DNA of 64,000 nt from Motilimonas eburnea (GTDB lineage Bacteria > Pseudomonadota > Gammaproteobacteria > Enterobacterales > CBDFNC01): the NCBI RefSeq assembly GCF_021295345.1, contig NZ_JAIMJB010000008.1, positions 124,001 through 188,000 on the forward strand, read 5' to 3'. Positions 31,549-58,242 of the stretch are shown here, piece after piece (the stretch's first letter is position 1; each line of letters opens with the position of its first letter). The notes under the pieces were generated by a model. That model was given only the letters and a program-made list of their open reading frames with translations. It did not search any database and had not been told where the DNA came from. The translations under genes were made by a program, and so were the position numbers.

Positions 31549-31639
31549 GCTGACAACGGCACCATTAAAAATGGGTAACTGTCAGATCAAGTCTGAGCTA
31601 GTACAGTTTAGCAGTGTTAGTTTTTATCCATTCGGTGCT

Positions 31640-33730
31640 CTAGTATAGCTCTTCAGCTTTATTCGATACCTCTTGAAGTTCACCACTTTCCAGGCGAATA
31701 ACCCGGTCGGCAGAACGGATCGTTTCCGGTCGGTGAGCAATAATCACACGGGTGATATTTAGACTCTTCAAAACCTCATTCACTCGCTGTTCGGAATTAA
31801 TATCTAAATGTGAAGTGGCTTCATCAAGGAACAATATTCTGGGCTGTTGGTACAGAGCTCTGGCGAGTAAAAGTCGCTGTTTTTGACCACCTGATAGTGC
31901 TGCTCCCATATCCCCTATCATAGAATTATATTGCATTGGCATTGCCTGAATATCTTTATGCAATGCAGCCATCTTGGCACAATGGATGACACGCTGGATA
32001 TCAAGGCCGGGATCGAACTGGGCAATATTCTCAGCGATTGAGCCAGATAAAAGCTCATCATCTTGCATAACTGCGGCTATTTGCTGCCTGTACTGTCTCT
32101 GTCCCAGCTGATTGGCTGGCAGGCCATCCAGTAATACTTTTCCTTCTGAAGGCTGATAAAGTCCAAGCATTATTTTCATAAGGGAGGTTTTGCCTCCACC
32201 AGAGGGGCCTACAATTGCGACAGACTCTCCCGCACGGATTTTAAGGTCGATATTTTGAAACAGCCATGGCTCACCGGTGGCATAACGAAAACTCACCTGA
32301 GAAAGCGCCAGCTTTCCCTGAAGAGTATGTGATGACACCGCTTCCAGATGTTTCTCTTGCTCTGTCATTGCAATGTCAGCTAATCGCTCCAGGTGCAGAC
32401 CCAGCATTTTAAACTCTATCAGCTTGTCGACTAATGAAGAGAAACGTTGAGTAAGCTGTCCCTTATATGACAGAAAGGCCATTAGCATTCCAACCGAAAA
32501 TGTCTGTGTGGTGTCAGTTGCCATGATAAGCTGTGCGCCGAGATAGACCACTAAAATGTTTTCTACTCCAAACAACAGAGAATTAGCAATACGATAACCA
32601 ATGTTTAGGCGTTCAATACGTACTCCCAGGTTCAGGGCCTCCATATAGTGATTTTGCCACAAAGCCTGACGCGACGTTTCTATCCCGAAAAGCTTGATCG
32701 TTTGAACGCCACGCACGCTTTCCATAAAGTTTGATTGCTCTTTTGCACCCGCAACTATCACTTCTTCTGATAAGGCCCTGAGTGGGCGATACCAGCAAAG
32801 ACGGATCACCAAATATAGCCCCATTGCTATGCAAACCACCGAAGCAAGCGTTGGGCTGTATATGAAAATCATACATAATGTAGTGATGGCCATCATCCCA
32901 TCTATGATAGCTTCAACCATTGCATTGGTTATCATCCGCTTTACGTGTTGTAATGACCCAAAGCGGGATACCACGTCGCCAATGTGCCGTTTAGCAAAAT
33001 AATCCAGAGGCAGCCGGAGCATGTGATGAAATAAGTTAAATGCCAGTTGTTGATTAAGGCTGGCGCCCAAATGCACCACCACATAACCACGAAAAGCCGT
33101 TGTCGCCACATTGAAAAGAAGCAGCATAGAAAAGCCAAGTGCTAATACAGTCAACAGGCTTTGGTCATAACCTACTACGACTTCATCTAGCACCAGCTGC
33201 ATGTAGTACGGCATAGCCAATGCAAAAATTTGTAAGATCATAGATAACAGAAGTAACTGAATTAATATTGGCTTAAGCCCGGTTACCCTTGACATAAACT
33301 GGGACAGTTTCATCTGCTTCCGTACATCTTTTTTCTCGAACCCTGGCGCAGGTGTAAGCTCAAGTGCAATACCAGTAAAGTGGTTGCTGGCTTCTTCCAG
33401 AGTGAGCACACGCCTTCCCATTGCCGGATCCTGAATAACAATTTTGCTGCGTGAAACAGACTCCAGAACGACAAAGTGATTCATGTCCCAATGCAAAATG
33501 CATGGCCGTTTTAATTGTTTTAATTGGTCTAGCTCAAGTTTCAATGCCCGGCCGGATAGCTTCAGAGCATCTGCAATCCCCATCAGCTGCTGCATATGCA
33601 TGCCTTTTAAGGTTTGCGGGTGTTGCTGTCTTAAACTAATCAGATCACTCTTATAACCGTAGTGATCTGCCACCATCGCGAGACAAGCCAGGCCACACTC
33701 TGCGGCTTCGGATTGTAGAATCGTTTTCAA
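31640..33730 (-). CDS. Peptidase-containing ABC exporter (C39 type)
   Basis: A 696-residue transporter with three parts: an N-terminal C39 peptidase with catalytic Cys12, His85 and Asp101; a six-helix membrane domain; and an ATPase with Walker A (GPSGGGKTS), signature LSGGQ, Walker B (ILFLDEATS) and a switch His. Such exporters cut double-glycine leaders and export the product (CvaB type). It is the last gene of the minus-strand locus that holds a double-glycine precursor. The start is a TTG with AGGAAG upstream. Confidence 0.92.
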   Translation of the reverse strand: MKTILQSEAAECGLACLAMVADHYGYKSDLISLRQQHPQTLKGMHMQQLMGIADALKLSGRALKLELDQLKQLKRPCILHWDMNHFVVLESVSRSKIVIQDPAMGRRVLTLEEASNHFTGIALELTPAPGFEKKDVRKQMKLSQFMSRVTGLKPILIQLLLLSMILQIFALAMPYYMQLVLDEVVVGYDQSLLTVLALGFSMLLLFNVATTAFRGYVVVHLGASLNQQLAFNLFHHMLRLPLDYFAKRHIGDVVSRFGSLQHVKRMITNAMVEAIIDGMMAITTLCMIFIYSPTLASVVCIAMGLYLVIRLCWYRPLRALSEEVIVAGAKEQSNFMESVRGVQTIKLFGIETSRQALWQNHYMEALNLGVRIERLNIGYRIANSLLFGVENILVVYLGAQLIMATDTTQTFSVGMLMAFLSYKGQLTQRFSSLVDKLIEFKMLGLHLERLADIAMTEQEKHLEAVSSHTLQGKLALSQVSFRYATGEPWLFQNIDLKIRAGESVAIVGPSGGGKTSLMKIMLGLYQPSEGKVLLDGLPANQLGQRQYRQQIAAVMQDDELLSGSIAENIAQFDPGLDIQRVIHCAKMAALHKDIQAMPMQYNSMIGDMGAALSGGQKQRLLLARALYQQPRILFLDEATSHLDINSEQRVNEVLKSLNITRVIIAHRPETIRSADRVIRLESGELQEVSNKAEELY

Positions 33731-33811
33731 CTGGGTAATCTTCCTAATACGATTGGTATTGCTCCAATGCTTTGTTTTTTGATGCTATTTCAGCACTTTC
33801 TGCCTGCCCAG

Positions 33812-35056
33812 CTAAACTAATATGCCACGTAAACTAAGCAGTGGCTCAAACAGCCATTCAACCAGCGAGCGCTTATCAATAAGAATTTCAGCTTCCAGTA
33901 ACATCCCGGCCTGAAGAGGCATCACCTTTCCATAGGCCTGAATGCCTTGCTTGTTGAGTTTTGCTTTTACCCGGTATACTGGCTCTGTAAAACGTATTGG
34001 CAATGTGACTTCGTTGGGCAGTAAAATATTCTCTGATGTTTCAAATATGTTCGCATCAAGCATGCCAAACTTTTGATATGGAAAGGCTTCAAGTTTGATT
34101 TTTGTCTCTTGCCCTTCTTCAATAAAGCCAAATGCACGGGTTGGGATGAAAAGCTCAGCGTACAATTCAGCCCCTTCGGGTAACAGGCTTACCATATATT
34201 GCTGTGGTTTGAGTAGCTGCCCTTCCTTAACATCAAGTACTGTAACCCGCCCGGATTTTGACGCAGAAATGATCACCTCTTTCTGGCCAGTCAAAGCTGT
34301 TAGCCGTGCCCGAGCTTTGGATTCATTCAATTGTAATTTCTGAAGCTCGGTTTCCAGCTCAAGTGGTAATCGTTCAGTTGTAAGGTTGAGCTCTTGTCTC
34401 TCAAGCTCTAATCTTGTTTGATTCAAATGAAACTTCGAGATCTCTTGTTCCAGAGAGAGCAAAAGGTCCTGCTGGTTTTCAACCATCTGTTTATTTGCAA
34501 AGCCATCAGCATGCAAATTATCTAAACGATTTAATTGTTTTTTTGCTAGTTTAAGTCTTGATTGAGTTTGCTGAGCCTGTAATTGGTGAAGCTGGATTTG
34601 GGTGTTCAGGTTATTTATTCTTTTTTCGTATTCTTTTGCTCGCTTTTGATAAATAAGTAGTAGTTTATTTTGCTGTGCCTGAATGATAGCTAATTGCTGA
34701 TGAATTTCATTTCTTTGCAAATTATTTAGATCATCTCCGGAAGCTGTGCGGTGACGGTACTCTAGCTTAAACATTGGCTGGCCTGCCTCTAGGTGCTGTC
34801 CTTCTTTTACAAACATCTGGGAAACATATGCGCTACCTGGAGCAAAGATTTTGATGATCCCCTGGTTGGGGATTAGGTATCCGTTGACTTTCTGTTTTTT
34901 ATGATAGTTTGAGCTTGTAAGAAATGCTGTACTAGTAATTAGCATAACAACAAGCAAAAGAAAAAATACTTTGTAACTTAGAGGTTGAGCCAAATTGACG
35001 TCGCCCCAAAGTTTGTCATGCTGATTTTTACTGACTTCTTTTCTAAATAATGACAC
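33812..35056 (-). CDS. HlyD-family export adaptor (CvaA type)
   Basis: A 414-residue protein with one N-terminal membrane helix (about residues 26-48), a lipoyl-like half-barrel, a long coiled coil (Gln- and Leu-rich, about residues 95-245) and the returning beta domain. It links the C39 ABC exporter to an outer-membrane channel in type I secretion. It lies 81 bp upstream of the exporter gene. The start is a GTG. The channel is presumably a host TolC. Confidence 0.88.
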   Translation of the reverse strand: MSLFRKEVSKNQHDKLWGDVNLAQPLSYKVFFLLLVVMLITSTAFLTSSNYHKKQKVNGYLIPNQGIIKIFAPGSAYVSQMFVKEGQHLEAGQPMFKLEYRHRTASGDDLNNLQRNEIHQQLAIIQAQQNKLLLIYQKRAKEYEKRINNLNTQIQLHQLQAQQTQSRLKLAKKQLNRLDNLHADGFANKQMVENQQDLLLSLEQEISKFHLNQTRLELERQELNLTTERLPLELETELQKLQLNESKARARLTALTGQKEVIISASKSGRVTVLDVKEGQLLKPQQYMVSLLPEGAELYAELFIPTRAFGFIEEGQETKIKLEAFPYQKFGMLDANIFETSENILLPNEVTLPIRFTEPVYRVKAKLNKQGIQAYGKVMPLQAGMLLEAEILIDKRSLVEWLFEPLLSLRGILV

Positions 35057-35247
35057 AGGGTATACTACCTGAAAAAAGGTGTGACTTTAACTGTTTGATA
35101 AAGGTTTTAAATTGCCTCTTGATTATATCTTCATTTGATGTTTATCATTGCAAGAGTCCTTATTCTGTATTTTTCGTATTAACTGCATACTCGCCATCTG
35201 ATCTTACAAACCATATCCCATATCCTAGGCTCAAGGGGGTAAGGTTA

Positions 35248-36696
35248 TCAGCAAATTTTACCTGCTATGTACCCAAATACAGAGCCTAACATTAATCCGG
35301 TGCCACCAGCATAATTATGATAGTGTGCCCCTCCTACTATTTCACCACACGCATACAGTCCTTTTATTGGAGTGTTATTTGAAGATAATACTTGAGCGTG
35401 TTCATTTATTTTTATTCCACCGTAGGTGAAGGTTAACCCTGTAACTACGGGACATATGAAAAAAGGAGGTTGAATGATTTTTATTGACCAGTTTGACTTA
35501 GGGATAAGTAACCCATTTGTAGTTAGTCCGTCTTTCTTCACAAACTCACTGGATTCAACTTCAATTGAGGCGTTAAACTCATCTATCTCCTTGGCTAAGG
35601 TATCTTCTCTAATACCAAAATGACTAGCTAATTTTGATAATTCATTAGAGCAAACCATCCCACTGTTCACAAAATACCCCTTAGGTAGTAAGGCGGCTGT
35701 TCTACTGTCAAATATTTGATAACAAATTCTATTTGGCTGCTTTAAAATTTCACCACCAAGTTTTGCATACAGGAAATTTGGATTATCTTCACCTTCATCA
35801 AAGAATCTTTTACCTACTTGGTTGACTGTTATTCCTAAATTAAAACAATACCTCGAGTTGAGTTGAACTTGTTCATGATCACCTGGTAATGAGTAAGGCG
35901 AAATATTAACTCCTTGGGGAGTTGAATGACAACCCTTTTTATCTCCGTAAAATATTGCCCCGGCTTTTATAGCAGCGTAAATCCCTTCGCCTGTGTTAAA
36001 GGGAACCCCTCGAACCGGAACATTTGACCACAAAAAACCAAGATTTTCTGCAACCTTTAATGAGTTAGCCTGAAAACCACCACACGCAAGCACTATTGAT
36101 TTACATAAAATATTATTTTCAATAATGGTGTTGTTTGTTGAAAATGAAACTCCAGCAATGGTTGAGTTATCGAAAATGATATTGTTAAGCTTGCTTTCGT
36201 ATAATATTTTCACTCCCAATGACTCAGCTACGGAGAAATTTTTTTCTTGTAAAGTTGCTCCTCCTCCTTTAATCCTTATAGGAACACTTCCCTCGAGAAT
36301 ATTCGGTTTAACTTCCCATCTATGGCCGAGAGAATATAACCACTTTATAACATTGTAGGAGTGTTCCGATAACGTTTTAGATAGCTCTTGGCATGCCATA
36401 CCCTTCGAGGATTTCATAATATCATCGTAAAAATTACTTGGCGAGTATGGGTAATATTTCGACTTAATAAGCATTTCTGTTTGCTTTGGGCAATCAGTTA
36501 ACTCACATAGTTCAAACAAGTTAGAATGAGTAAACCTGAAGTTCATTGTTAAGCTACTGTTACCACCCCTGTTTACTTTAGGGCTTTTTTCGAGAATTAC
36601 AACAGATTTACCCTTTTGTGCAGCTGAAATTGCTGCGCATAAACCCGCGTTACCAGCACCAATAACAACTACATCACAACTAATAGTTTTTATCAT
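35248..36696 (-). CDS. FAD-dependent oxidoreductase of the RiPP locus
   Basis: A 482-residue flavoprotein. The N-terminal VVVIGAGNAGLCAA is a Rossmann FAD-binding motif, followed by LEKSPKVNRGGNSS; the C-terminal GLYACGEIVGGAHYHNYAGG is typical of the fumarate reductase/tricarballylate dehydrogenase (TcuA-like) family. It could desaturate or oxidise the peptide. The start at ATG 36696 overlaps the GNAT stop (ATGA). A flavoenzyme of this family in a peptide-maturation operon is unusual. Confidence 0.82.
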   Translation of the reverse strand: MIKTISCDVVVIGAGNAGLCAAISAAQKGKSVVILEKSPKVNRGGNSSLTMNFRFTHSNLFELCELTDCPKQTEMLIKSKYYPYSPSNFYDDIMKSSKGMACQELSKTLSEHSYNVIKWLYSLGHRWEVKPNILEGSVPIRIKGGGATLQEKNFSVAESLGVKILYESKLNNIIFDNSTIAGVSFSTNNTIIENNILCKSIVLACGGFQANSLKVAENLGFLWSNVPVRGVPFNTGEGIYAAIKAGAIFYGDKKGCHSTPQGVNISPYSLPGDHEQVQLNSRYCFNLGITVNQVGKRFFDEGEDNPNFLYAKLGGEILKQPNRICYQIFDSRTAALLPKGYFVNSGMVCSNELSKLASHFGIREDTLAKEIDEFNASIEVESSEFVKKDGLTTNGLLIPKSNWSIKIIQPPFFICPVVTGLTFTYGGIKINEHAQVLSSNNTPIKGLYACGEIVGGAHYHNYAGGTGLMLGSVFGYIAGKIC

Positions 36697-37382
36697 TTTT
36701 GCTTTGACCACTCTAACCTTACAAACTCACCGACTTCTATAAAACCAAAGCTATTATATAGATTAATAGCTGTTTCATTTCTTGCATCAACGTGTAGGAA
36801 ATTTGCTAATCTCCTATCACATAGCTCCTGTAATAAAATTGAAGAATGCCCACGTCTTCTATGATGAGGGCTAGTATAAACATAGCTGATACATCTATAA
36901 TTAAAAATGCTACGCGTTGCTGCAGCCATGCTAATGGCTCTTCCCTTCTCCTCGTAAAATATAAAGTCATTCTCGTTTTTTTGTAGCACTTTGATTGCAT
37001 CAATATCACTTATTTCTCTATTTAAAACATCATTGTAAAATGCTCTTACTAAGGAAATCTTAGAGCGATCTAAGTTGTTATCTTTTTTGTTATGATTTTT
37101 TATTTCAATATTTTTGTGAAAAATTTTTATGTTACTCTTTGAAATGTTGTTAATATTGTTCTTGGTTAGTTTTTCTGAAACAAAGTCTAATAAATCAACA
37201 CGAAACTCTATAGCGGAAAAATTAACTGCGAAAATATTAATACATTTCTCTAGATCTTCTATAGAGCAATCTCTATGTATAATTATGTTTTTTTTGTGAT
37301 GCCTAACTAACGATTCGCTCAGTGGCCATTCAAGTCGGCTAGCATCAGGGTTATAATAACGGTTGTTGAGTAATTTGTTCAT
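36693..37382 (-). CDS. GNAT N-acetyltransferase
   Basis: A 229-residue protein. The C-terminal half has the GNAT motif A (YTSPHHRRRGHSSILLQEL) and the end motif HVDARNETAINLYNSFGF. The N-terminal half is not recognised. Its start overlaps the YcaO stop (TAATG) and its stop overlaps the FAD gene. In a RiPP locus it probably acetylates the N-terminus or a side chain of the product or gives self-immunity. Confidence 0.82.
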   Translation of the reverse strand: MNKLLNNRYYNPDASRLEWPLSESLVRHHKKNIIIHRDCSIEDLEKCINIFAVNFSAIEFRVDLLDFVSEKLTKNNINNISKSNIKIFHKNIEIKNHNKKDNNLDRSKISLVRAFYNDVLNREISDIDAIKVLQKNENDFIFYEEKGRAISMAAATRSIFNYRCISYVYTSPHHRRRGHSSILLQELCDRRLANFLHVDARNETAINLYNSFGFIEVGEFVRLEWSKQK

Positions 37383-38362
37383 TAGCAAAATGGATCTTCA
37401 ATTGTAAATCTAGAAAACTTTCTCCTACAACTTAGCTTATCCTCAGCTTCTGCAATTCTCACTCTGCAAAGGTATAAACCTTCATTGTCAAATAGGTCAT
37501 AGATAGAGATGTTTGGCTTGGAGGAGAATGTATTTTCTAAAATTGTATTTGCATTGAAATCAATGTGGCGATCGACATTGTTTTTTGTTCCTCTAATTTT
37601 CTTATCTAATTCAAGCAGTATTTTAGAGCTCTCAAAATCGAAAATTCTATTTAACTTCAATAATGATTCATTATTGTTCCCGTGATCAGCTCGTGGAATG
37701 TTTACGCAAAAATTACAATATAAATGCAAAGATTCAGCTTTAGATTTTTCCATTGCTTCATTAATGCTACTTCGCACAGATGAGCCAAAATATACTCTTT
37801 CATCACAAATAAAACAAGCAATTACAAAAGGTATGCTTTCATTTATGATATAATAGTTAATAACTTGGTTGTGTGCGATATATTCAGTATCAATTAGGTA
37901 GAGGCCTTTTTCATAGTACCAAGCTTCACACAGCAGGTGTCTTTCTATAACTTCAAAGAGTGCATTTACAATGGCACAATCTCTATCCTCGTGAATGGCC
38001 AAACCATTAGCAGAGGTTATCCTTTTTCCATCTTTATCAAATTGCCTAATTAAAATATTCGAAGCCGGAGTAAAACCTACACTTAACCCAGAGTAATAAC
38101 ATCGACCCTCAAAACCTTTTGATAACCTTTCAGGTGAAAAAAAACATTCATGCGATAGCATTCTCTCAAGGATTTCAAACGATGATATTTTAATGCATTT
38201 TTCTTCATCGTATCCCTCTGAATGACCATGAAAGGCTTCTGTTTTTTTATCAATCGTAATTGCAGCAGTGCTATCAACAATAATAAGATTACTTATTGAT
38301 GGGTGATTATAAATAAACGAGACAATAGGGACTCCATAAAATATCAGTTCTACTCTCTTCAT
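37382..38362 (-). CDS. YcaO-family peptide backbone-modifying protein
   Basis: A 326-residue protein. TSANGLAIHE followed by ALFEVIERH and an earlier FEILERML match the ATP-binding core of YcaO enzymes, which activate amide backbones to make azolines, thioamides or amidines. It is shorter than many YcaO proteins and ends DPFC without the proline-rich tail of azoline-forming members. The start at 38362 overlaps the preceding stop (ATGA); an ATG 12 bp earlier is possible. No E1-like or azoline oxidase partner is visible, which argues against a standard azole pathway. Confidence 0.75.
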   Translation of the reverse strand: MKRVELIFYGVPIVSFIYNHPSISNLIIVDSTAAITIDKKTEAFHGHSEGYDEEKCIKISSFEILERMLSHECFFSPERLSKGFEGRCYYSGLSVGFTPASNILIRQFDKDGKRITSANGLAIHEDRDCAIVNALFEVIERHLLCEAWYYEKGLYLIDTEYIAHNQVINYYIINESIPFVIACFICDERVYFGSSVRSSINEAMEKSKAESLHLYCNFCVNIPRADHGNNNESLLKLNRIFDFESSKILLELDKKIRGTKNNVDRHIDFNANTILENTFSSKPNISIYDLFDNEGLYLCRVRIAEAEDKLSCRRKFSRFTIEDPFC

Positions 38363-39336
38363 AGCATTGAACATTCGTTAAAGGAGTCTCGTATCTTCTT
38401 GCCATTCTCAGTGAAATTTGCTTTATCTGAAAGCACTTCATTAATCCCTATTTCTAGTTGTAGGCGGCATAACTGTAACCTGTCTCTAAACCTTTTATCA
38501 TAACCATTTAAAGATGCGGTTTTAAAGAAACGTACCATTCGAGATAATACAAATGTTGCATGAAACACTCCTCGCAGTGGACGCATTTCGTTCCTGATTG
38601 GTGCTCTAAATATTTTCTCATCGTCACAGTTTAAGGTTAGTTTATCAAGATGAAATAATGCCTCAAGCTTGAGGTGAGACACTTCATGAATTATATGTTC
38701 AATCCAATAAGCTACTTGATCGTCTTCTTTTTCTGGAACTCTAAGCCAAATTGCACCGAATACTTTTGATGAAGTATCTCCCCGCAGGACCCTGCCTTGA
38801 AATATCTTTATGTCGGTTAGGTAAGCTTCAACCTCAGAATAAATACATGGTGTCTGCTCCTTTATCAAATTCAAGGCCACTTCAATATTTTTTTTGTGAA
38901 AGTCCAATTCGGAATTATTTAATATGGGTCTAACGATTGTCGATTCATTCCTAATGTTTTTTCGCTCATAGCTCCTCAGGTAATTTATGTAGTTCCACTC
39001 CCAATCTTCTGAACAAATACTTGATATTTCAATTTTCTCACTTATTATCTCGTTTCCTATTGCAATCTTAATTTTTGATAATGAATCAAGAATTCCTGTA
39101 ATGTCACCAGACTTCATGGAGCATGACAATTCATAGAATGCAAAAATGAACTTCGGTGACAATTTTTTTTCGTTAACGATAGAATCGAGTATTTCATTTA
39201 TATCCGATAATTCTAAACCCAGTTTGGTTTCACACATCGAAGTGTAGATCTTCCATAAGTCAACTTGAAATTCACGAAGCTTCCTTGCTGTTGATTTGTT
39301 TGCCTTAGGGTTTGGTATAGAAGTAAAAATTTCCAT
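38359..39336 (-). CDS. HExxH peptide-modification protein (TIGR04267-like)
   Basis: A 325-residue protein. HEVSH at residues 217-221 in a long helix (IEHIIHEVSHLKLEAL) and a following C-terminal helical segment fit the HExxH-motif putative peptide modification family. Members of this group occur in peptide-maturation loci, and some have been reported as iron/2-oxoglutarate-type hydroxylases rather than proteases. It is the first enzyme gene after the precursor and the attenuator. An AGGA site lies upstream of ATG 39336. The chemistry here is unknown. Confidence 0.72.
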   Translation of the reverse strand: MEIFTSIPNPKANKSTARKLREFQVDLWKIYTSMCETKLGLELSDINEILDSIVNEKKLSPKFIFAFYELSCSMKSGDITGILDSLSKIKIAIGNEIISEKIEISSICSEDWEWNYINYLRSYERKNIRNESTIVRPILNNSELDFHKKNIEVALNLIKEQTPCIYSEVEAYLTDIKIFQGRVLRGDTSSKVFGAIWLRVPEKEDDQVAYWIEHIIHEVSHLKLEALFHLDKLTLNCDDEKIFRAPIRNEMRPLRGVFHATFVLSRMVRFFKTASLNGYDKRFRDRLQLCRLQLEIGINEVLSDKANFTENGKKIRDSFNECSML

Positions 39337-39512
39337 TATTGGCAAAGTCCTAAAAAATTAATAAAAGTAGTTTTTTACACATAAAGGATGTTTTCGAAAC
39401 TGTTATAATTCCAAAATGGGAAGCGTGGGTATGAAAGGTATTACGCATGCGAAAATGGCTAAAGGTTCTTTTCTAATTTGAACAAAATTAAAGACACTAA
39501 TTAAAGTTGAAA

Positions 39513-45714: not shown

Positions 45715-46074
45715 CAGATTTCAGGTTACTACTACAATCATTTTATAACTATACTTCACTATGGGCGCGGGTCATTTTGACTTACCTTACCGCCCTTGTT
45801 CTGCATCGAATGTTGTTGGAATAGTTCGCTACTTCAACACTTCGAGTGGGCAGAAAGCCGTAACTTGAAATGCCGATTTGCAATGCTTTGAGGTTTAGGA
45901 CGTAATCCGCCGAGTTGATACCATATAGTGCATGTTCTTTAACAACCATATTTTTATCTTGATAGTTAAGTTATTGTATTTATAGGTTCTTATCTATCAC
46001 TTTAGAAATTTGGTTAAATTGGATATAGATAGCTAACCAACTGTGCTAGCTCATTATTCTGGTGAATTTACTCA
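45715..46074 (+). promoter_or_regulatory. CRISPR leader region
   Basis: A 360-bp AT-rich gene-free stretch before the first repeat. The array direction (degenerate repeat at the far end) puts the leader here. TTGATA elements with weak -10 boxes lie near 45960-46000, but no single promoter is clear. A CACTAT-GGGCGCGGGT sequence near 45750 is vaguely repeat-like. No tracrRNA anti-repeat was found by eye. Confidence 0.5.
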
Positions 46075-46522
46075 GTGCACTATCGGGTGTGTGGCTAGTA
46101 AGAAGCATTTGCATGGAGCCGTTGTAACCTTGCAGTGCACTATCGGGTGTGTGGCTAGTAAGAACATGGTGATGAAGTCAACCGAAAACTCCCGGTGCAC
46201 TATCGGGTGTGTGGCTAGTAAGGCAGTGTGCTTTTATTGCCTCCCGACGTCAATGTGCACTATCGGGTGTGTGGCTAGTAAGATCACCATCGCCAAAGAT
46301 AGGATTATTATCGTGTGCACTATCGGGTGTGTGGCTAGGAAGTTACAGCAATTTTCTACACCAACACCACTTGCGTGCACTATCGGGTGTGTGGCTAGTA
46401 AGTATGATGGTGAGCGTGTCCGGCAAGCAAAACGGTGCACTATCGGGTGTGTGGCTAGTAAGTGTAGGCTCAACTTTGCTCATATCCCCCTCACGTGCAC
46501 TATCGGGTGTGGGAGGTGTATA
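46075..46522 (+). CRISPR. CRISPR array, 28-bp repeats and 32-bp spacers
   Basis: Seven full repeats start at 46075, 46135, 46195, 46255, 46315, 46375 and 46435, spaced exactly 60 bp, with seven unrelated 32-bp spacers. Each repeat begins GTGCACTATC and ends GGCTAGTAAG; the fifth has one T-to-G change. An eighth repeat at 46495 keeps its first 17 bases and then diverges, so the array reads left to right. Length and spacing equal those of type I-F arrays, and about 17 of 28 bases agree with the well-known P. aeruginosa I-F repeat. The array runs into the nuclease gene. Confidence 0.95.
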
Positions 46523-48024
46523 TGCCGAGAACTAAAACGCCTAAAGGCATGGTCAGCGTATATAAGGCCTACCGATTTGAGCTGCATAATTTGTCTAAAT
46601 CTAAGGTACGATCTCTTTACAAAACCTTCGTCCAATCAGACATGGCTTATTACAAAGCCTTAGCGCTTTGCGAAGAAGATGCTAACCACATATTAACGCT
46701 CGAGACTAAGAGTGAGAAAAATAAGCGTTTTGGTCAACTGCAAAAAAAACTACAAGCTATAGTGAAACCCCTACCTTTTGGTAGCGCATTAAAAGCATCG
46801 GTCATTGAAACGGTAAAGCAGCAAGTCAGTTCTTATGTTGAACTAAAACTTTCTGGTCAGAATGCCGGGTACCCATCAAAGGAAAGCCATGCCATTGATT
46901 ATGAGTTTTGGCTGAATCAGCTTCTTTTATCTGTGGACCTTGAAAGGGAGAGTGAGGCACGAGACGCACTCTCAATGAAAAACTATTCGAAATACCGACC
47001 GCTATCGTTCGAGAAACACCGCATAGGTGATGGTTTCAAGATCTACCAAGATGATAAAGGCCGATTGTTTGCTTTTCTTAATTTGTGGAACAGCCATGAT
47101 AAGCGTGCCAGCAAAATCCAAATGGACATGATAGATACTAAGAGTGGTGAGCGGTGCCAAGAAAGTACCTCCTTAGGTATGCTAGTTCCTCTTTCTTTTT
47201 CTGAAAAACAACGTGATGCCTTGTCTAAGGGTCAAGCGCAAACGGCTAAATTAGTTGCAACCGAAGATGGGCGGTTTTTCTTGATGGTCAGTGTGCTATT
47301 TCAAGTTAGAAAGCAGGAAGCAGCGTGTATCATGGGGGTAGATCGAGGTTTCGATGAGTTAGCTACATTTTCAGTTAGGGATAGCTCATCTGGTAAAGTG
47401 TTCGTAACAGGCTCTTTGTCCGGGCATAACCTTCGCCAGCACCAAAGAAAGTTAGAGGCAAAACAAAAGTTAGATCAAAAGTTAGGAAAGCGTTATATCT
47501 CAGGCTGGTCAAATTACTCTCTCAATTTGATGCACCACGTCGCTAATGAAATAGTGTCTATTGCTGATAAATATAAGTGCCAAGTTGTACTTGAGGACCT
47601 ATCCAGCATTAAGAACAACCCTCACATGAAAAGGCCTAAAGGGGCTAGAAAAAGTAATTTTTCACGCATGTTGTCCCGCCAGCAATATGGTCGCCTAGAG
47701 TTCCTACTAGGCTATAAGCTTGCTTGCATGGGGCTACCTCCACCAAAGCTTGTTCGAGCGGCCTACACGAGCGTAACTTGCCCCAAATGCGGTCATGCTG
47801 ATAAGAATAATAGGCCGCCACATAGAAGAGATACGTTTTGCTGTACAAATAGCCCTTGCCAGTATCAAGAGCATGCCGACATTGTTGGCGCTCATAATGT
47901 AGCTGGCAAGTTCATCTGGTATGAGAGTGTTAAGTCAAAGATGAAAAAAGGCCATCCTCTGCCAGAGCAGCATCAATACTCATATTGGCTAAGGCAAAAC
48001 CTTGTGCTGGAGGCTGGTAAATAG
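46522..48024 (+). CDS. Cas12/TnpB-like RuvC nuclease linked to the array
   Basis: A 500-residue protein, the size of a miniature type V effector. The split RuvC triad is intact: Asp274 (MGVDRGF), Glu358 (VVLEDLSS) and Asp453 (HADIVGAHN). A zinc finger lies between the last two (CPKC at 420-423, CC at 440-441, Cys446). An RNA-guided DNA nuclease is expected. The ATG follows a GGGAGGTG site at 46511-46518; the GTG at 46495 is inside the degenerate repeat and is not the start. No Cas1, Cas2, Cas4 or Cas6 gene is visible in the window. No IS605 tnpA or ends are seen, so it is not a plain transposon TnpB. Its subtype within the V-U/Cas12 group is not assigned. Confidence 0.85.
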   Translation: MPRTKTPKGMVSVYKAYRFELHNLSKSKVRSLYKTFVQSDMAYYKALALCEEDANHILTLETKSEKNKRFGQLQKKLQAIVKPLPFGSALKASVIETVKQQVSSYVELKLSGQNAGYPSKESHAIDYEFWLNQLLLSVDLERESEARDALSMKNYSKYRPLSFEKHRIGDGFKIYQDDKGRLFAFLNLWNSHDKRASKIQMDMIDTKSGERCQESTSLGMLVPLSFSEKQRDALSKGQAQTAKLVATEDGRFFLMVSVLFQVRKQEAACIMGVDRGFDELATFSVRDSSSGKVFVTGSLSGHNLRQHQRKLEAKQKLDQKLGKRYISGWSNYSLNLMHHVANEIVSIADKYKCQVVLEDLSSIKNNPHMKRPKGARKSNFSRMLSRQQYGRLEFLLGYKLACMGLPPPKLVRAAYTSVTCPKCGHADKNNRPPHRRDTFCCTNSPCQYQEHADIVGAHNVAGKFIWYESVKSKMKKGHPLPEQHQYSYWLRQNLVLEAGK

Positions 48025-48231: not shown

Positions 48232-49236
48232 GTGGACGCACAAGAATATCAGGTGCTTAATTATATGTTTACTTTCCCTACCTTAAACCAAGCGAAAGCG
48301 CACTCAAAATACCTATCGCAAGTTATTGGCATCAAGCGTACCCATGCGCAAGAAATTGTGGCATTTATTCACAAACAAAATACTTGGGCTGAGCTAGTCA
48401 TGCTGTGTAAAGACTTGGGCGGAACCCTGTTGAGTGATAATAGCCATTTTCCTACTCTATATTGCTCCCAAGAAACTATCGCAAGGTTTGATAGTGTTAT
48501 TTCGAAGTACCGGAAAGCTATTGATGACATCATCGCAGTCAGTCCAAAAGTACATGACAGTTTGCTTACTCGAATTTCTAATAAGGATTACCACCGGATT
48601 TCAGGTTCAATTGTTGGGAGTTTGCTTGATGAGATCGAGGGTTATGAAAGCTATCGCTCTAGCACTGCAGAAAATGTATTGTTTTGCTTAAATTTTTGGG
48701 ACGACTCTGTTTTTAAGGCTATTTACAACCGAAATACCAAATGTAACAACCCTACTCTAAGCCCCGAGTTTTTGCCCCAACATTTTTATGCCTATTACAA
48801 CTTCAAAGGGAAGAGTGTTGATATTTCGTGTCGGGAGTGGGATTTGAACCTAGAAAGGCCTAGTAAACTTAAGCGATCCTCTAATGCCGTTGATGAGCGC
48901 TCATTTCAAGAGTCGATTTGTACTAGAAAATGGTTTAAGCCCTATATGATTGGGTACTTGAAAATGATTTGCCAGCATTTTCGAATGGCAGGGTTTAGCG
49001 GCAATATTCGGATCCACAAAATTCTTAACTATTCTGCAAATAACCATAAAACGGGCATCAGAGACGATTACTATCATGATGAAATTGCAGGTTTGTTTGA
49101 TGCTCTTATCAAACTTGGAGGGCGGTACGTTCGTGAAAAAGGGGCCGGAGGGGAGCTACTCGATATCGATTGTTTGGAAATCTCATTTTTTGCTGATGGA
49201 ACAAATCAGTGGATGATCGGGGAGAGCACTATATGA
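48232..49236 (+). CDS. Hypothetical protein next to the CRISPR nuclease
   Basis: A 334-residue protein. Its first part (LNQAKAHSKYLSQVIGIKRT then AQEIVAFIHKQNTWAELVML) resembles the N-terminal repeat of mobile-element proteins sometimes annotated as glyoxalase-related. The start is uncertain: GTG 48232 or ATG 48265 (Met12). It overlaps the next gene by 4 bp. The 48025-48231 gap holds no gene. A role with the CRISPR nuclease is possible but unproven. Confidence 0.48.
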   Translation: MDAQEYQVLNYMFTFPTLNQAKAHSKYLSQVIGIKRTHAQEIVAFIHKQNTWAELVMLCKDLGGTLLSDNSHFPTLYCSQETIARFDSVISKYRKAIDDIIAVSPKVHDSLLTRISNKDYHRISGSIVGSLLDEIEGYESYRSSTAENVLFCLNFWDDSVFKAIYNRNTKCNNPTLSPEFLPQHFYAYYNFKGKSVDISCREWDLNLERPSKLKRSSNAVDERSFQESICTRKWFKPYMIGYLKMICQHFRMAGFSGNIRIHKILNYSANNHKTGIRDDYYHDEIAGLFDALIKLGGRYVREKGAGGELLDIDCLEISFFADGTNQWMIGESTI

Positions 49237-50054
49237 ATGCTCTGAAAAAGTATGTACTTCAACGGTTTAATGCGATGTCTAAACCAGAGCGCATTTACAT
49301 TATTTGCAAAATTACAGAAACTGATTTTTATAAAGATTATTGTCTGAAAAACCGAAACAGAGTAGTACATTTCTACCTGTATAATAACGCAATAAATGCT
49401 TATTTAGTGAGATACTTCGAAGGTGGTACTATCCATGGTAGGCGCAGTCCTTTTGATCAAACGCATGAAAATGATCGGTTAAGCCTTATTACATACCAAT
49501 TACCTTCAACGGTTTTCATTCATTCAAAGGACTCCTCTTTTGAGCCTTTGTTTCATAAGGTTAAAACTACCGAGCTCGTTCGCCCCTTCAAAGTTAAACA
49601 GTATGAATCCGCGATGATCAAAGCATGGTTAAAAGCACAGCCCTTCCTAGCTTCTAGCTCTATGGATCCCCAAGGAAGCTATTCGCTCGCTAGGCTTAAT
49701 TACTCCAATGTTTTCTCAAGTAAACAAGATGTCTATTTTATTTTGGATGAAGAAAATAGTATGGTGAAAATAGGCATTACCTCTGATTTAAAGAATAGGC
49801 TTAAGGCTATTAAAGCGCAGTATCGGACAGGGGACCTTGAGGTAGTATCTGTTGTGCATGCTGGTGGTGTTGAGGTTGAGCGTTTTCTTCATCACTATTT
49901 TTCTGATCTTCAAGTCAAGCAAGCAGGTAAGGGAAATGAGTGGTTTCATTACTGTGAAGTTCTATACGAATTTATTCGCTCGCTAAATGAATGTCCCATT
50001 AAAAGTGAGTTTATCGCGAAGCTAATGCAAAAGACTTCGGCTGCAGTTGCTTAG
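49233..50054 (+). CDS. GIY-YIG/MUG113-like protein
   Basis: A 273-residue protein. The C-terminal VYFILDEENSMVKIGITSDLK followed by RL, then the ERFLHHYF segment, resembles the GIY-YIG/T5orf172-MUG113 nuclease fold found in phages and islands. The N-terminal part is not recognised. The start ATG overlaps the previous stop (ATGA) and has a GGGGAG site, so the two are translated together. A DNA-cleaving role is plausible. Confidence 0.52.
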   Translation: MNALKKYVLQRFNAMSKPERIYIICKITETDFYKDYCLKNRNRVVHFYLYNNAINAYLVRYFEGGTIHGRRSPFDQTHENDRLSLITYQLPSTVFIHSKDSSFEPLFHKVKTTELVRPFKVKQYESAMIKAWLKAQPFLASSSMDPQGSYSLARLNYSNVFSSKQDVYFILDEENSMVKIGITSDLKNRLKAIKAQYRTGDLEVVSVVHAGGVEVERFLHHYFSDLQVKQAGKGNEWFHYCEVLYEFIRSLNECPIKSEFIAKLMQKTSAAVA

Positions 50055-50067: not shown

Positions 50068-51312
50068 TTAGCACCTAATCTTCGGTATATGTCGCCAATT
50101 GGTCGTGTACTGCGGCGACAAATATTCGCGCCGCATATCCCATTTCTGCTCGATGCCCTCGCCTGCTAGCAAGGCCGTGCCATTACCAAACCGATTATTG
50201 ATAGCATCGAGGCATTGCATGAGCTTGGGGTTACTCCTGTCTTTGGCAAATATATCCAACTGGACATTGCACTCACTGCGAAGCTCCACCAGCCCAATGC
50301 CCGCTCGATAATAAGGTACACCTGGCTTAAAGAGCTGGTGGATATTCTCTCGCACTGCACCTGCTATCACTGAGGTGTCATTGGTTGGTACCTCGAACCG
50401 GTGCAAGATTTTAAATGACTGCGGCGTTTCATCGAATGATGACGAAGCGGCAAAACCAATTAATTGCTGCGCAACACTACCTTGATCGCGTAATTTCTTG
50501 GCTGCAATCGCACAGTGTTTCGCTAAGGCTTGGTATAAGCTTTCAATGTCGGTAATTCGCTCGCCAAACGAGCGTGTTGACCAGATCTGTTGTTTATCCG
50601 CTCTAACCGTATCCCATTCTTTAACAGGCTCCCCGTTGAGCTCGCGTACCGTCTGCTCAAGTAAAATATTGAAATTTGTTTTGGCGTGCTTTGGTGGCCA
50701 TTTAGCTAAATCAATGGCTTTGTGAATATTAAATAGCTTGAGCCGTTTGGCTATGCGCCTACCAACTCCCCAAACATCTTCAACGTCCATCTGTGACAAT
50801 ATTGCTTCCCGCTGTTGTGATGACTCAATAAAGCAAACCCCATGGTAACCGCGGATCTTCTTAGCTGCGTGATTAGCAGCTTTGGCCAACGTGATGGTCT
50901 CACCGATGCCAACGCACACCGGTAGCCTTAACTCGGTCCAAATACGCCTTCGGATATCGGCGCCAAGCTGCAGTAGGTTTTTTTGCCCACTTAAATCCGC
51001 AAAGCTCTCATCGATGCTGTAAATATGGACGTTGGGTGAGTATTCTGAGATCAAACTGGCAAAGCGCATTGAGAGATCGCTATACAGCTCGTAGTTGGAG
51101 CTTCTTACAATTACCTTGTGCTTTTCACATAACTCTTTGATTTGGAAATAAGGAGCGAACCGAGGGATGTTTAATTCTTTAGCTTGCCGATTTAATGCTG
51201 CAACACAACCATCATTATTAGTTAATACTATCAATGGTTTCCCTCTGTTATGAGGCTCGAAAACGACCTCGGCAGAGGGATAGAAAGAATTGACATCGGT
51301 AAGTGCGATCAA
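50068..51312 (-). CDS. umuC: UmuC, Y-family DNA polymerase V subunit
   Basis: A 414-residue error-prone polymerase. Asp6 and DE at 101-102 (YSIDESFADLSG) are the catalytic acidic residues; the little-finger and C-terminal parts are complete. It bypasses DNA damage with UmuD'. The start is a TTG with GAGAAC upstream. A LexA box lies 21 bp upstream, so it is SOS-controlled. No umuD precedes it; UmuD would have to come from another locus. Mobile elements often carry umuDC or rumAB. Confidence 0.9.
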   Translation of the reverse strand: MIALTDVNSFYPSAEVVFEPHNRGKPLIVLTNNDGCVAALNRQAKELNIPRFAPYFQIKELCEKHKVIVRSSNYELYSDLSMRFASLISEYSPNVHIYSIDESFADLSGQKNLLQLGADIRRRIWTELRLPVCVGIGETITLAKAANHAAKKIRGYHGVCFIESSQQREAILSQMDVEDVWGVGRRIAKRLKLFNIHKAIDLAKWPPKHAKTNFNILLEQTVRELNGEPVKEWDTVRADKQQIWSTRSFGERITDIESLYQALAKHCAIAAKKLRDQGSVAQQLIGFAASSSFDETPQSFKILHRFEVPTNDTSVIAGAVRENIHQLFKPGVPYYRAGIGLVELRSECNVQLDIFAKDRSNPKLMQCLDAINNRFGNGTALLAGEGIEQKWDMRREYLSPQYTTNWRHIPKIRC

Positions 51313-54207: not shown

Positions 54208-57200
54208 TCACGATTTACTGGGTTTAGAAACGTCCAACACAAACACATCGATGAGTCCTTTTAGTTGTGCCGGTAGCGTTGCTTCAATACAGCTTTTTAA
54301 CTGTTGAGCACTTTTTATCCCATGTTTTTGTTTCTGTTCAACTTTGACATTTTCACCAAACCAAATCACGAGGTATATGCCTTGATGCTCGGCATCTGGG
54401 TGGATGGAGTAACGTTCAAATAGTTGAGCAGATGCTGCTGAATATAGGTCTTTATGCCATTGCCCTTTGGCTTCAATAACAAGCAATCGCCTTTTGCCAT
54501 CAATCACTTTCGATGCCGTTATATCGATTCTATTTTGATTTTTGGTCTGATGCTCTGACGTAATAATTATGCTTTTTGGGGTGAGTGCCAAGCTAAGACG
54601 TTCGGCGACGATCTCAACAGATGCAACTTCGCCTAAATTGATGTCATTACCGTTGGTATCTACTTTATAAAAGCGATTTGCTGCATTGAACTCTCCACCA
54701 TTAATATCCTTTTGATAGTTCAATAGCTCTTGAAGCACTAGCTGGCGCAACCCTTCAACCGTGACCACAGCATTGTTGTCTAATAAATCTACGATTTGTT
54801 TAGGCGCTGGTGGCTCAAAATCTCTCAGCGCTTTTTTCCGAAACTGTTCGGCTTGTATGCTCTTCAACTCTCGATGAATGTCTGCAAATCGTGGATCTGC
54901 TAAAAGTCGACCAAGAACAGGGATTGCTTCATCTGGGTTATCTTTACCAATTGACCAGACGATTTCTTTAAGGAATCGATAGGCCTTCTCTTCGATAGGA
55001 TCGTGTGTGCCATAACTGCTCGGAAGGTGTACTTTTGGCAAGGCATCGAGAATAGCTTCTACCTTGTTAGATGTAAGCATTGGCCATTGTGAATAATCAC
55101 TGAATCTGCCGGAATACTCATTGAACAGCAATACGGAGTTTTTATCAGACTTTAACCAATTAAAATACGGCTCAGCCTCTTCTAGGTTCAGGAAGTAGAA
55201 AGCGCGAACAAACCAGAATTTTCGGCTTTGCTTGAGCTCATCATCCAATGCCCCCTGCTTTGAAGGCAATAACTCCGAACATCGACTACGAATGATTTGT
55301 TTTAGTTGTTCTTTAGTTCCGTAATCAACCGCCGTATTAAAAAGAGAGTTCAGAGCATTATGTCCGATAGTATTAAAACGCTCAAGCCAGTCAATGGATA
55401 GCTTGGCTCGTAAAGGACTGAATATCTCGTCGTCAATTAATATATCGACCTCTGGGTAGAGACATTGAGGCTGCGTTAATTGAGGCTCAAGGTATTCTCG
55501 TAGAAATTGCTCTGCAGAGCCGGTGTCAGGAAAGATTAAGCGATCTACTTCAGCTTTAAGAGCATCGCATTCGCTTGCTTCAACGGCATCAAAGTTCATC
55601 TGTAAGTTTGTTCTCAGTGCTTTTAACAATGAGGGTTTGACACCTTCTAAATTTCCGCAATCACGCAATATCTCAAGGCAAGCCGCAAAGAGGATAGTCT
55701 CGGCGTATAAACCTTTGGAAGCACATTGCAATTCAGCCAGTGTTTTCAGATTAGGAACGTGTGGTTCAACAAAGTCGAGGCAGTTTTTTAGTGCATTTCG
55801 AACAAGCTGCTCATCGCCAAATTCTGTTTCAATACGCTCTGGTTTGTAAAGAACGAGCTCGGCAAAGCGAACCAAGTAGCCCCAGTGCCGGCCACTTTCC
55901 ACCAAAGCGCGGTTGTTTTGAACATAGTTTATGTTTTTCGTGTGTCGCAGCCTATCTTTTCGTTGCTTTCGCTTCATTCGTCGACGGTGTTTGGCGTTTC
56001 GCTTTAGGTTGTCCTTATGTTCCCACACCGGCGTTTGCCTGTTTTGTAAGGCCCAAGCCCGCATAAATTCAGGTTTTTGCAAGGCTTGAAGGCGCATTTT
56101 GCGACGCAAATAATCTGGCCCTAATTTGCCTTTTGCATGATGATAGTGGTGTCGGGGCAGAAAGTTTATCCACAATTCGAGGTTGTTGTTCTTAAACGCC
56201 AAATCAACAATATAATTAACATCATCAAGGTTTAGACGAAGGCCGGCATGTGAGTAATGACCACCAAACACGTGTACCTCAGCATGAAAAATACGGTCCC
56301 GATCCGCAAGTTGTCCGAAAACATGAGCGATGATTTCTTGGCGTAAGGTTTGGTTTTGTTGTAGAAATTTTACCGAGATGATGTCCTGGGTGTTTACTTG
56401 CCCCGGAAAATTGAGGTTTTCAATCCATTGCCAGATACGTAAGGCTTCAAAAGGTGGTTTAGCCAGCTCACAATAGCGATCTAGCATTGACCCCATGATT
56501 TTGCTGATCCCTGTTCTACAGTCACACTCATAGGCTTCTTTTCCGCAAGTACAGGCCAAGTCTTTACTCATTGAATCTAAAAGCCATTCGATGGTTTCTA
56601 GATTTAAACGATCTATTAATCGCTTAACAAAATAGCGCCCTCCGAGTGTCCCCTCAAAGCGTCTTCGATGGTTAGGGTAAAGGTTGAAGCAACTACGAAA
56701 GAATACTTCAAGCTCACTCGGACTAAATGTGTCTGGCCCAAGCTCTACGATTGCATCTGCTGCTACATGCAATGACGAATGAGTCGCTTCCGTTATCAAC
56801 GCTTTCAAATCTGAACGGAAGTTGTAGTCATCAATATTCAATAGGCAGTTCTTTGCTAAGAATCGAACATGCTTTTTTTCGCCGGGTGCTAATAGTAACT
56901 CACGTAATTCTATTACTAACCACTTCTCGGCTTTGGAGCCTACTAAAAGTTCAAGTAGCAAGTTTTTCAAGTGCCCGTCACCGTCATCAGTGATAATTGG
57001 CTTTATTTCATCGATGGTTTCTTTGGTAAAAAATCCGACTACGCTAAACCTACGCCAGAAGTCTCCCCTTCGAAAGTATGGATCAGAGGCTTCAACTTGC
57101 TTTAATCGGGATATAAGAAGCCTTTTTGAAGATGGCGTGAGCTGGGAAGGGTCGCCGTTTGCAAGTACCGCGTATGGATCAAGCTCAATAGCGCGTTCTT

Positions 57201-58242
57201 GGATTGAATTATCGCCCAATGAGGCCATCCAACCAAGTAAACCGCGCAATTCATCTCGAACCGTGGAGTTTGGAGCGATAATCGGCAAACATTGAATCAA
57301 AGTTAAAGGGTCTGATGGACAGGAAATACGCTTAACGAGATAGCTTGCAGCACAATATTCAGCAACAATCTTATGAACGGGTCGATGCTGGTCGGCATGA
57401 TCACCTGGCTTGAAAAGACGAGTTGCTAATATAGGTCTCGCCCCGACATTCTTAACGTTCAATAGTGAGCTAAGTAAGGGGTACATCCTGTCTTCGCTTG
57501 CTTCGCTTACTCCAACCCCTTCAGTACCAGACAATAATAGTTTTGCAAAGATTTCTGACGATAGGATAACTTTGTCTTCAATTGACAGAGGCGAAACAGT
57601 TTTGGTTGCTGGGTTAGCTTCTTTAGCTAAACGTGTCACGGCTTGAGTAAAAATTGAACGCTTGTCGGTAAAATGTCCATTGCTCTCAGTGTAGGCATCG
57701 GCAAACATCTTCAGAAACTGTGGATTTGGGAGAATAGGCTCCAATGCAAATCTGGCAACCTCGCTCCGAAATGCAGCAAAATCACCTTTCTGCAAGTGGT
57801 GCGTATAAATCTCCTGTTGCTCCGAATCATCAAACTCGCAGATTCTGACAAGTAATGGAGCATGGCCAAGAAATTGTTCAAAATTATTGGTGGCTGAGTG
57901 AGCCCATTCACTGGATCTGCTTGAAATAATGACTTTCGTCGGCTCGGCTTTGCAAACCTGAGCAAGTAGTTCATAAATACCTGCGCTATCAACCTTGGCG
58001 AGCTCATCAAAGGCATCAATGACTAAAGGAATCTCTGCTTGGTCAGGCCCCTTGTAGCGAAAGGCACTTGCTGTCACTTCTTTAACGCCAAGCTTTTTTG
58101 CCAAGCTCTTCAGGAGCTCTGTCTTTCCAGCCCCAGGTTCAGCCAAAATGACAATGTAGTTGGATGTTTCTAGTAACTCAGTCTCTGTGTACGTGTTATC
58201 ACCAACAGAAAGTCTACGTTCGAGGTAAAAGGGCTGATTCAT
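54208..58242 (-). CDS. NACHT/STAND ATPase with C-terminal nuclease-like domain
   Basis: A 1344-residue protein. Walker A (AEPGAGKT, residues 34-41) and a Walker B-like LVIDAFDEL (73-81) mark an N-terminal NACHT-type NTPase. A long helical middle follows. Near the C-terminus Asp in NRIDI (about 1240), ExK in VIEAKGQW (1257-1259) and QLFERY fit a PD-(D/E)XK nuclease. NACHT-nuclease fusions in islands are usually antiviral sensors that cut DNA on infection. Unlike Avs proteins, the nuclease-like domain is at the C-terminus. Defence is inferred from fold and setting. Confidence 0.7.
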   Translation of the reverse strand: MNQPFYLERRLSVGDNTYTETELLETSNYIVILAEPGAGKTELLKSLAKKLGVKEVTASAFRYKGPDQAEIPLVIDAFDELAKVDSAGIYELLAQVCKAEPTKVIISSRSSEWAHSATNNFEQFLGHAPLLVRICEFDDSEQQEIYTHHLQKGDFAAFRSEVARFALEPILPNPQFLKMFADAYTESNGHFTDKRSIFTQAVTRLAKEANPATKTVSPLSIEDKVILSSEIFAKLLLSGTEGVGVSEASEDRMYPLLSSLLNVKNVGARPILATRLFKPGDHADQHRPVHKIVAEYCAASYLVKRISCPSDPLTLIQCLPIIAPNSTVRDELRGLLGWMASLGDNSIQERAIELDPYAVLANGDPSQLTPSSKRLLISRLKQVEASDPYFRRGDFWRRFSVVGFFTKETIDEIKPIITDDGDGHLKNLLLELLVGSKAEKWLVIELRELLLAPGEKKHVRFLAKNCLLNIDDYNFRSDLKALITEATHSSLHVAADAIVELGPDTFSPSELEVFFRSCFNLYPNHRRRFEGTLGGRYFVKRLIDRLNLETIEWLLDSMSKDLACTCGKEAYECDCRTGISKIMGSMLDRYCELAKPPFEALRIWQWIENLNFPGQVNTQDIISVKFLQQNQTLRQEIIAHVFGQLADRDRIFHAEVHVFGGHYSHAGLRLNLDDVNYIVDLAFKNNNLELWINFLPRHHYHHAKGKLGPDYLRRKMRLQALQKPEFMRAWALQNRQTPVWEHKDNLKRNAKHRRRMKRKQRKDRLRHTKNINYVQNNRALVESGRHWGYLVRFAELVLYKPERIETEFGDEQLVRNALKNCLDFVEPHVPNLKTLAELQCASKGLYAETILFAACLEILRDCGNLEGVKPSLLKALRTNLQMNFDAVEASECDALKAEVDRLIFPDTGSAEQFLREYLEPQLTQPQCLYPEVDILIDDEIFSPLRAKLSIDWLERFNTIGHNALNSLFNTAVDYGTKEQLKQIIRSRCSELLPSKQGALDDELKQSRKFWFVRAFYFLNLEEAEPYFNWLKSDKNSVLLFNEYSGRFSDYSQWPMLTSNKVEAILDALPKVHLPSSYGTHDPIEEKAYRFLKEIVWSIGKDNPDEAIPVLGRLLADPRFADIHRELKSIQAEQFRKKALRDFEPPAPKQIVDLLDNNAVVTVEGLRQLVLQELLNYQKDINGGEFNAANRFYKVDTNGNDINLGEVASVEIVAERLSLALTPKSIIITSEHQTKNQNRIDITASKVIDGKRRLLVIEAKGQWHKDLYSAASAQLFERYSIHPDAEHQGIYLVIWFGENVKVEQKQKHGIKSAQQLKSCIEATLPAQLKGLIDVFVLDVSKPSKS

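Follow-up and report, generated by a model that had tools for sequence, protein, structure and literature searches.

The window analysed here, a stretch of 64,000 nucleotides, belongs to a contig (C70) of the Motilimonas eburnea genome that is 211,353 bp long and whose first and last 127 bases are identical; this makes a circular marine plasmid with a length of about 211.2 kb the most likely reading. Genes for TraF, TraH and TraG_N lie on the same plasmid (window positions 3142-9788). The parts of the CRISPR locus described below, from 45779 to 48024, are on the forward (+) strand. A repeat search found seven complete 28-bp CRISPR repeats (46075..46462) that start at 46075, 46135, 46195, 46255, 46315, 46375 and 46435, with a period of 60 and with spacers 1-6 between them; the fifth repeat differs from the others at one base. 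Spacer 7, the last one (46463..46494), is followed by a truncated eighth repeat (46495..46511), which is intact over its first 17 bases and decays into the ribosome-binding region of an effector gene. Each of the seven spacers is 32 nt long. These results confirm the first-pass annotation, which had described a seven-spacer 28/32 array directly 5′ of the gene for a 500-residue RuvC nuclease, and add the truncated eighth repeat. When the whole genome was searched with the repeat, allowing up to three mismatches, 7/7 matches fell inside the window array, and thus no other array with this repeat was found. As a negative control, the reversed pattern gave no match.

The adjoining gene (46522..48024, with the ATG at 46522 and the stop codon ending at 48024) encodes a TnpB/Cas12-type effector of 500 amino acids, and its ribosome-binding site, read by eye, is of the GGAGG type and lies where the eighth repeat decays. 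The protein shows the hallmark of type V systems, a single effector with a C-terminal RuvC nuclease that has a D-E-D triad and a zinc ribbon. The catalytic residues Asp274 (codon at 47341..47343), Glu358 (47593..47595) and Asp453 (47878..47880) are each invariant in 4/4 aligned family members, the window protein being one of the four. The nearest library models are those of Cas12u3, Cas12f and TnpB. The PADLOC Cas12u3 model matches residues 15-463 (E 3.6e-23), the Pfam Cas12f1-like TNB model matches with an E-value of 2.7e-11, the NCBIfam Cas12f2 model gives 86.5 bits, far under its 450-bit cut-off, and TnpB models match as well. Matches to solved structures fall mainly in the C-terminal half of the effector, the best being 9nzq (C-terminal part, E 5.7e-14). 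Among the scanned open reading frames neighbouring the effector, none matched the TnpA families of Pfam and NCBIfam. Elsewhere on the plasmid (C70 198312-199415) there is a second TnpB-type gene which, judged from its translation, looks ordinary.

Three relatives of the effector were found. Using tblastn, we identified one at 60.2% identity on the Pseudoalteromonas spongiae plasmid NZ_CP023400 and one at 55.9% identity in phage J2-1, and a search of viral contigs gave a third at 55% identity in an uncultivated virus (L012). The P. spongiae plasmid has a 28/32 array of eight repeats, the last one decayed, directly 5′ of the relative's gene, L012 also has a 28/32 array, and J2-1 has none, so that arrays are linked to the effector at 3/4 family loci. 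Since a 60%-identical protein on the Pseudoalteromonas plasmid adjoins its own 28/32 array, the pairing of array and effector is not due to chance. No further relatives were found in the genome-contig collection, and the M. eburnea genome itself was the sole match both among 394 genomes of the order (E up to 1e-40) and among 369 genomes of the class (E up to 1e-30). No tnpA is annotated beside the P. spongiae plasmid relative or the J2-1 relative. The main text of a Pseudoalteromonas phage survey that covers J2-1 and the related phage HM1 contains neither of the terms TnpB and Cas12 (PMC10232697, term search).

To place the family, a tree was built from 15 sequences, namely four family members, two Salinibacter sequences and nine sampled TnpBs, with no type V subtype references among them. 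The four family proteins formed one clade with a support of 99/99, and the nine sampled TnpBs fell outside it, which sets the nuclease apart from these TnpBs, a placement that the first-pass annotation had left to be tested. Within the clade, J2-1 and L012 were grouped (97/96), and the window and plasmid proteins were grouped weakly (82/67). The two Salinibacter sequences stood next to the family clade (90/87); the phage sequence of this pair had been trimmed by 120 residues of an upstream frame. The relatives in Salinibacter phages, of which 182 records match the effector, and on plasmid pSR16 are distant (24-26% identity). Two Salinibacter loci that were examined (L010:5897-6314 and L098:4803-5117) have their own arrays 3′ of the gene with a spacing of about 61-71, and no significant anti-repeat was found for the Salinibacter array (87/200 shuffles were as good).

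Upstream of the window array lies a tracrRNA-like non-coding RNA (45779..45934, ends approximate) that is conserved at all four family loci with a mean column identity of 67%; it is located 5′ of the array in the window and on the plasmid, and 3′ of the gene in L012 and J2-1. RNAalifold predicted 13 consensus pairs, 7/13 of them with changes on both sides. Single-sequence folds were not unusual (z -0.83 to +1.34), and an Rfam search of the RNA gave one chance-level match only, elsewhere. The RNA ends in an anti-repeat (45914..45934) that is predicted from duplex energy to pair with repeat positions 1-9 and 12-16; this segment was picked from the alignment and the complementarity together, after the complementarity had been seen. 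The pairing of each repeat with its own anti-repeat amounts to -19.1 kcal/mol in the window, -17.9 on the plasmid and -18.6 in L012, in contrast to -3.4 to -12.5 kcal/mol when repeats and anti-repeats are swapped among the three array loci (the window anti-repeat gives -3.4 with the plasmid repeat and -4.5 with the L012 repeat). The correct assignment totals -55.6 kcal/mol, and the next best of the six possible assignments -35.6. As a control, 0/2000 shuffled repeats paired as well at each array locus, and 0 (window), 3 (plasmid) and 0 (L012) of 2000 shuffled anti-repeats did. The order of the helix is alike across loci, with 7-10 pairs, a small loop and then more pairs. With the full-length RNA, the duplexes of the window and the plasmid hardly stood out from shuffles (64 and 70 of 500 were as good), and 1/500 was as good for L012. 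Pairing at -19.6 kcal/mol is likewise predicted between the L012 repeat and the anti-repeat of J2-1, as expected from their close kinship. Taken together, the best reading of this RNA with its co-varying anti-repeat is a putative tracrRNA.

Phage J2-1 shows what the family looks like when the array is missing. The J2-1 record contains one 28-nt unit within four substitutions of the L012 repeat; one other site, isolated and elsewhere, lies at the 7-substitution limit of the search, and the 3′ half of the repeat was found once. Read by eye, an anti-repeat of the L012 type is continued directly by the 3′ half of the repeat, which would fuse tracrRNA and repeat. The trinucleotide CAC at the join is common to anti-repeat and repeat, a pattern compatible with a single deletion in an ancestor of the L012 type. 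The homology between J2-1 and phage HM1 restarts exactly at the first base 3′ of the repeat-like unit and thereby provides an independent marker of where the scaffold ends and the guide starts. The predicted J2-1 guide is thus flanking phage sequence, the first 31 bases of which are identical in HM1. Where J2-1 has the nuclease insert, HM1 has other open frames (L026:1615-3196), which suggests a variable cargo site. In L012, the stretch after the last repeat (L012:2778-2940) resembles, on inspection by eye, the 3′ end of a phage gene, and the last L012 repeat may therefore also give a flank-derived guide. No relative of the L012 flank was found in the phage collection.

The HM1 match to the J2-1 guide is preceded by TTATTCC, and from it CC was inferred as the protospacer-adjacent motif (PAM) before any protospacer had been found. 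Two window spacers then matched prophages of the congener G001. Spacer 4 (46283..46314) is identical at 29/32 positions to an inovirus-type prophage, in a 515-aa gene flanked by a GPA-type replication gene and a gene of the Zot family. Spacer 6 (46403..46434) is identical at 30/32 positions to part of a prophage with capsid and tape-measure genes, the match lying in its tail tube gene. Both protospacers have a 5′-CC flank and both mismatch at spacer base 1. The HM1 target and the two strong protospacers thus share 5′-CC, the I-F PAM, at a background frequency of CC of 0.039-0.059, and 0.0002-0.0015 matches of at least 29/32 are expected by chance. CC was present in 3/7 of the candidate protospacer sites compared, and in 3/4 of those with at least 26/32 identities. 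The third site with CC (G003:C45, 26/32) lies inside an ssb gene and may not be a true target; the weak candidates without CC were found in G009 (27/32), G130 (24/32), G156 (24/32) and G257 (23/32), and further weak matches in G087 (20 nt), G003:C4 and G382. In these searches of 394 genomes no more than two candidates were scored for each genome, and weaker targets may be missed. The phage and plasmid records held no credible target for the window array or the P. spongiae plasmid array, and the latter had no credible protospacer in the 394 genomes either. In the M. eburnea genome itself, apart from the array, spacer matches were weak only (E 0.138 or worse). Seeds of 21 nt from the first two window spacers had no match in IMG/VR, and 20-nt seeds of L012 matched L012 alone.

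The first-pass annotation had called the array I-F-style from its geometry, and this is now supported by a leader in register with the repeat, by five repeat steps and by the CC PAM. For comparison, 40 stretches were taken from 39 of the 83 Cas6f-positive genomes of the order; 32 of them held arrays, nearly all with a period of 60. From the 26 arrays with a consensus of at least 28 nt, giving 21 distinct repeats, an I-F repeat consensus was derived. The window repeat agrees with this consensus at 14/28 positions and with the best single I-F repeat at 17, which is above shuffles (P 0.0006). Against the I-F repeats its mean is 13.7 forward and 11.7 in the reverse-complement control, the reverse complement of the plasmid repeat beats the forward strand (14.5 vs 13.4), and the L012 and J2-1 units are identical to the consensus at 11/28 positions. 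Since the reverse-complement control is high, the repeat likeness alone is weak. The window leader (46005..46074) was scored against 22 I-F leaders anchored at the repeat, leaving out arrays with fewer than five units, a short consensus, or an N or a short flank. Its mean score was 3.9 (shuffles -2.4), reached by 0/400 dinucleotide shuffles and 0/504 AT-rich genomic 70-mers; the corresponding counts were 0/400 and 0/504 for L012, and 1/400 and 2/504 for the plasmid. With the best single I-F leader, the window counts were still 0/400 and 0/504, and the results were weaker for L012 (20/400 and 2/504) and the plasmid (29/400 and 19/504). The IHF consensus was present only in the L012 leader. At the level of sequence, the leader is thus stronger evidence of I-F likeness than repeat identity.

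A preprint on I-F Cas1-2/3 gives, in one of its passages, five conserved purine-pyrimidine steps for I-F repeats, at positions 1-2, 5-6, 8-9, 17-18 and 20-21, and four such steps, in inverted repeats, in its main text (PMC12259127). The window repeat keeps 5/5 of these steps (0.0013 of shuffles), the plasmid repeat four (0.0149) and the L012 repeat four (0.0185), while the decayed eighth repeat keeps three and the J2-1 unit two of the five. The I-F adaptation features present in the window sequence are the leader, the five repeat steps, the 32-bp spacers and the CC PAM. The repeat has the I-F length of 28 bp and lacks the I-F stem used by Cas6f; its predicted hairpin has -4.2 kcal/mol vs -8.6 for the I-F consensus, and forms at other positions.

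The Pfam models of Cas1 (PF01867) and Cas6f/Csy4 (PF09618) matched nothing in the whole genome, which is 99.95% complete, and this extends to the genome the earlier observation that the window has no cas1 or cas6. As a control, the same searches in 14 genomes found Cas1 in 9 and Cas6f in 1; Cas6f is found in 83/394 genomes of the order, including 1/3 congeners. The first-pass annotation had proposed that the effector borrows both spacer capture and RNA processing from a host I-F system. The first part agrees with the leader, the repeat steps and the CC PAM; the second is not supported, as the I-F stem is missing and a tracrRNA-like RNA is found instead. RNA processing by Cas6f was accordingly rejected, the Cas6f gene also being undetected. 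As to the host, the strain itself is an improbable lender, since Cas1 and Cas6f were not found in it; spacers would have to be borrowed elsewhere, in hosts such as those among the 83/394 with Cas6f, and there would be no acquisition by detectable machinery now. For adaptation in trans there is a precedent in VI-B systems, which use II-C Cas1 (PMC8092290).

We therefore favour, with a probability of roughly 0.7, a plasmid-borne minimal type V-like system in which a TnpB-related effector would act with a tracrRNA and crRNAs beside 5′-CC, and which would have no adaptation genes of its own and be loadable by host I-F Cas1-Cas2/3. In such a system, the single-protein RuvC nuclease would work with the tracrRNA (45779-45934) and the crRNAs of the adjoining array; the anti-repeat would pair with the 5′ part of the repeat, and the 3′ part would carry the spacer. 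The RNAs, if expressed, would probably be matured by RNase III or by the effector, and the complex would be expected to cut DNA beside 5′-CC. A host type I-F Cas1-Cas2/3 could load spacers in trans through the leader, the repeat and the PAM, and the plasmid would presumably gain by keeping phages out of its host. Counting against this reading are the finding of three array loci only, the failure to detect Cas1 and Cas6f in the genome, the low repeat identity to the I-F consensus with its high reverse-complement control, the weak full-length duplex results at two loci, the weaker best-single-leader results of the plasmid and L012, the presence of CC at 3/7 candidate sites, and the plasmid array without a credible protospacer.

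Part of this reading would fail if the system were an independent type V-like one that had come to its 28/32 geometry and CC PAM by convergence and whose array is filled by an unknown non-I-F integrase. The lack of any observed acquisition, the missing I-F stem and the 11/28 identities of the L012 and J2-1 units to the I-F consensus would fit, but leader, repeat steps, geometry and PAM jointly point to I-F, and we regard convergence as unlikely. The same I-F leader, geometry, repeat steps and CC PAM would also be expected of an orphan type I-F array that serves a host I-F Cascade, next to a TnpB-like gene that is unrelated or uses another guide, and phages and archaeal viruses do carry mini-arrays used with host systems, according to PMC11656645. 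Such an orphan would not account for a repeat without the I-F stem, for the pairing of array and effector at three loci whose diverged repeats each have a matching anti-repeat, or for a genome in which Cas6f was not found, so that this explanation seems distinctly unlikely. Still less probable is an ordinary or decaying TnpB beside an array that is a passive fossil from which no guide is processed: the decayed eighth repeat, the failure to find adaptation genes and the matches to TnpB models would suit it, but the triad is kept in 4/4 aligned proteins, the seven repeats are nearly perfect, spacers match phages, the tracrRNA co-varies, the family proteins group with 99/99 support to the exclusion of the nine sampled TnpBs, and the annotation shows no tnpA next to the relatives on the plasmid and in J2-1. 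An open +1 frame does cross the window array, 60 being divisible by 3, and would suit a repeat-containing protein gene mistaken for an array; this can practically be dismissed, since all six frames of the plasmid array contain stops and two spacers match phage genes.

Within the favoured reading of a type V-like system loaded by I-F integrases, the J2-1 form looks like a TnpB-style or homing use of the nuclease. The direction of change may have been from TnpB to CRISPR or a reversal; the array-bearing outgroup favours reversal, and its arrays may be independent. J2-1 may thus represent a reversal in which one deletion joined the anti-repeat to the last repeat. Somewhat short of even odds, in our estimate, is the broader idea of a switching family, which in J2-1 would use one guide against flanking sequence, much as in homing, and on plasmids and in another phage would use an array; this array would have become a counterfeit I-F array (leader, repeat steps and PAM), to be loaded by the I-F integrases of any host entered.

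Known systems close to this one include the type V-U candidates, with PADLOC Cas12u3 (V-U3) as the nearest library model; with these the window shares a TnpB-like effector of about 500 aa beside an array with no adaptation genes found; the likeness rests on the E-value of the model match and is distant, and the window differs in its I-F-type leader, 28/32 array and CC PAM. Type V-F (Cas12f) shares a compact RuvC effector with a tracrRNA, but Cas12f has a T-rich PAM, from which the CC PAM of the window differs. IS200/IS605 TnpB with its omega RNA resembles J2-1 in having the RNA 3′ of the gene and a flank-derived guide, whereas the window guides come from an array, 3/4 family loci have arrays, and no tnpA is annotated beside the J2-1 gene. 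TranC systems are defined as being guided by a CRISPR array and by transposon-derived RNA alike, which would be the same idea as in the window system, and an I-F-type array is not known to occur among them. These transposon-CRISPR intermediates, in which the omega RNA is split into a tracrRNA and an array, were reportedly described by Jin et al. 2025 (Cell 188:6283). With VI-B, which uses II-C Cas1, the window shares an effector without adaptation genes whose array is filled by another type; here a type V-like system would be filled by I-F, as leader, repeat and PAM suggest. IV-A3 is likewise said to have an effector without adaptation genes and an array filled by another type. About 50 independent TnpB-to-CRISPR events are inferred in a passage of PMC12669027, so this kind of system is already known; in the open-licence literature searched we met no type V system with an I-F leader, repeat steps and PAM.

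The tracrRNA-like RNA, the array-less phage relative and the plasmid carrier go beyond the first-pass annotation. The family pairs an array-less form with a fused RNA and array forms at 55-60% protein identity, and bears on how TnpB-like nucleases became CRISPR effectors and on how effectors without adaptation genes are supplied with spacers. For this family, a flank-derived guide with a matching allele (HM1) and two spacers with phage matches are known, and the nuclease is predicted to be type V-like, to have a C-rich PAM and to receive its spacers from type I-F Cas1-Cas2/3.

A promoter and terminator scan of the locus stayed near chance level. Directly 3′ of the effector there are two genes (48232-50054), one without a Pfam or NCBIfam match and the other with a T5orf172/GIY-YIG-like domain, followed by a Y-family DNA polymerase of the UmuC type (50068-51312); a Y-family polymerase is also found on the P. 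spongiae plasmid, about 5.6 kb from that plasmid's array. Further along, 54208-58242 encodes a protein of 1344 aa with a match to STAND/NACHT-type NTPases and possibly a role in defence. At 21198-39345, the window carries peptide-modification-like genes, including two radical SAM/SPASM genes, YcaO, a C39 peptidase ABC transporter and HlyD.
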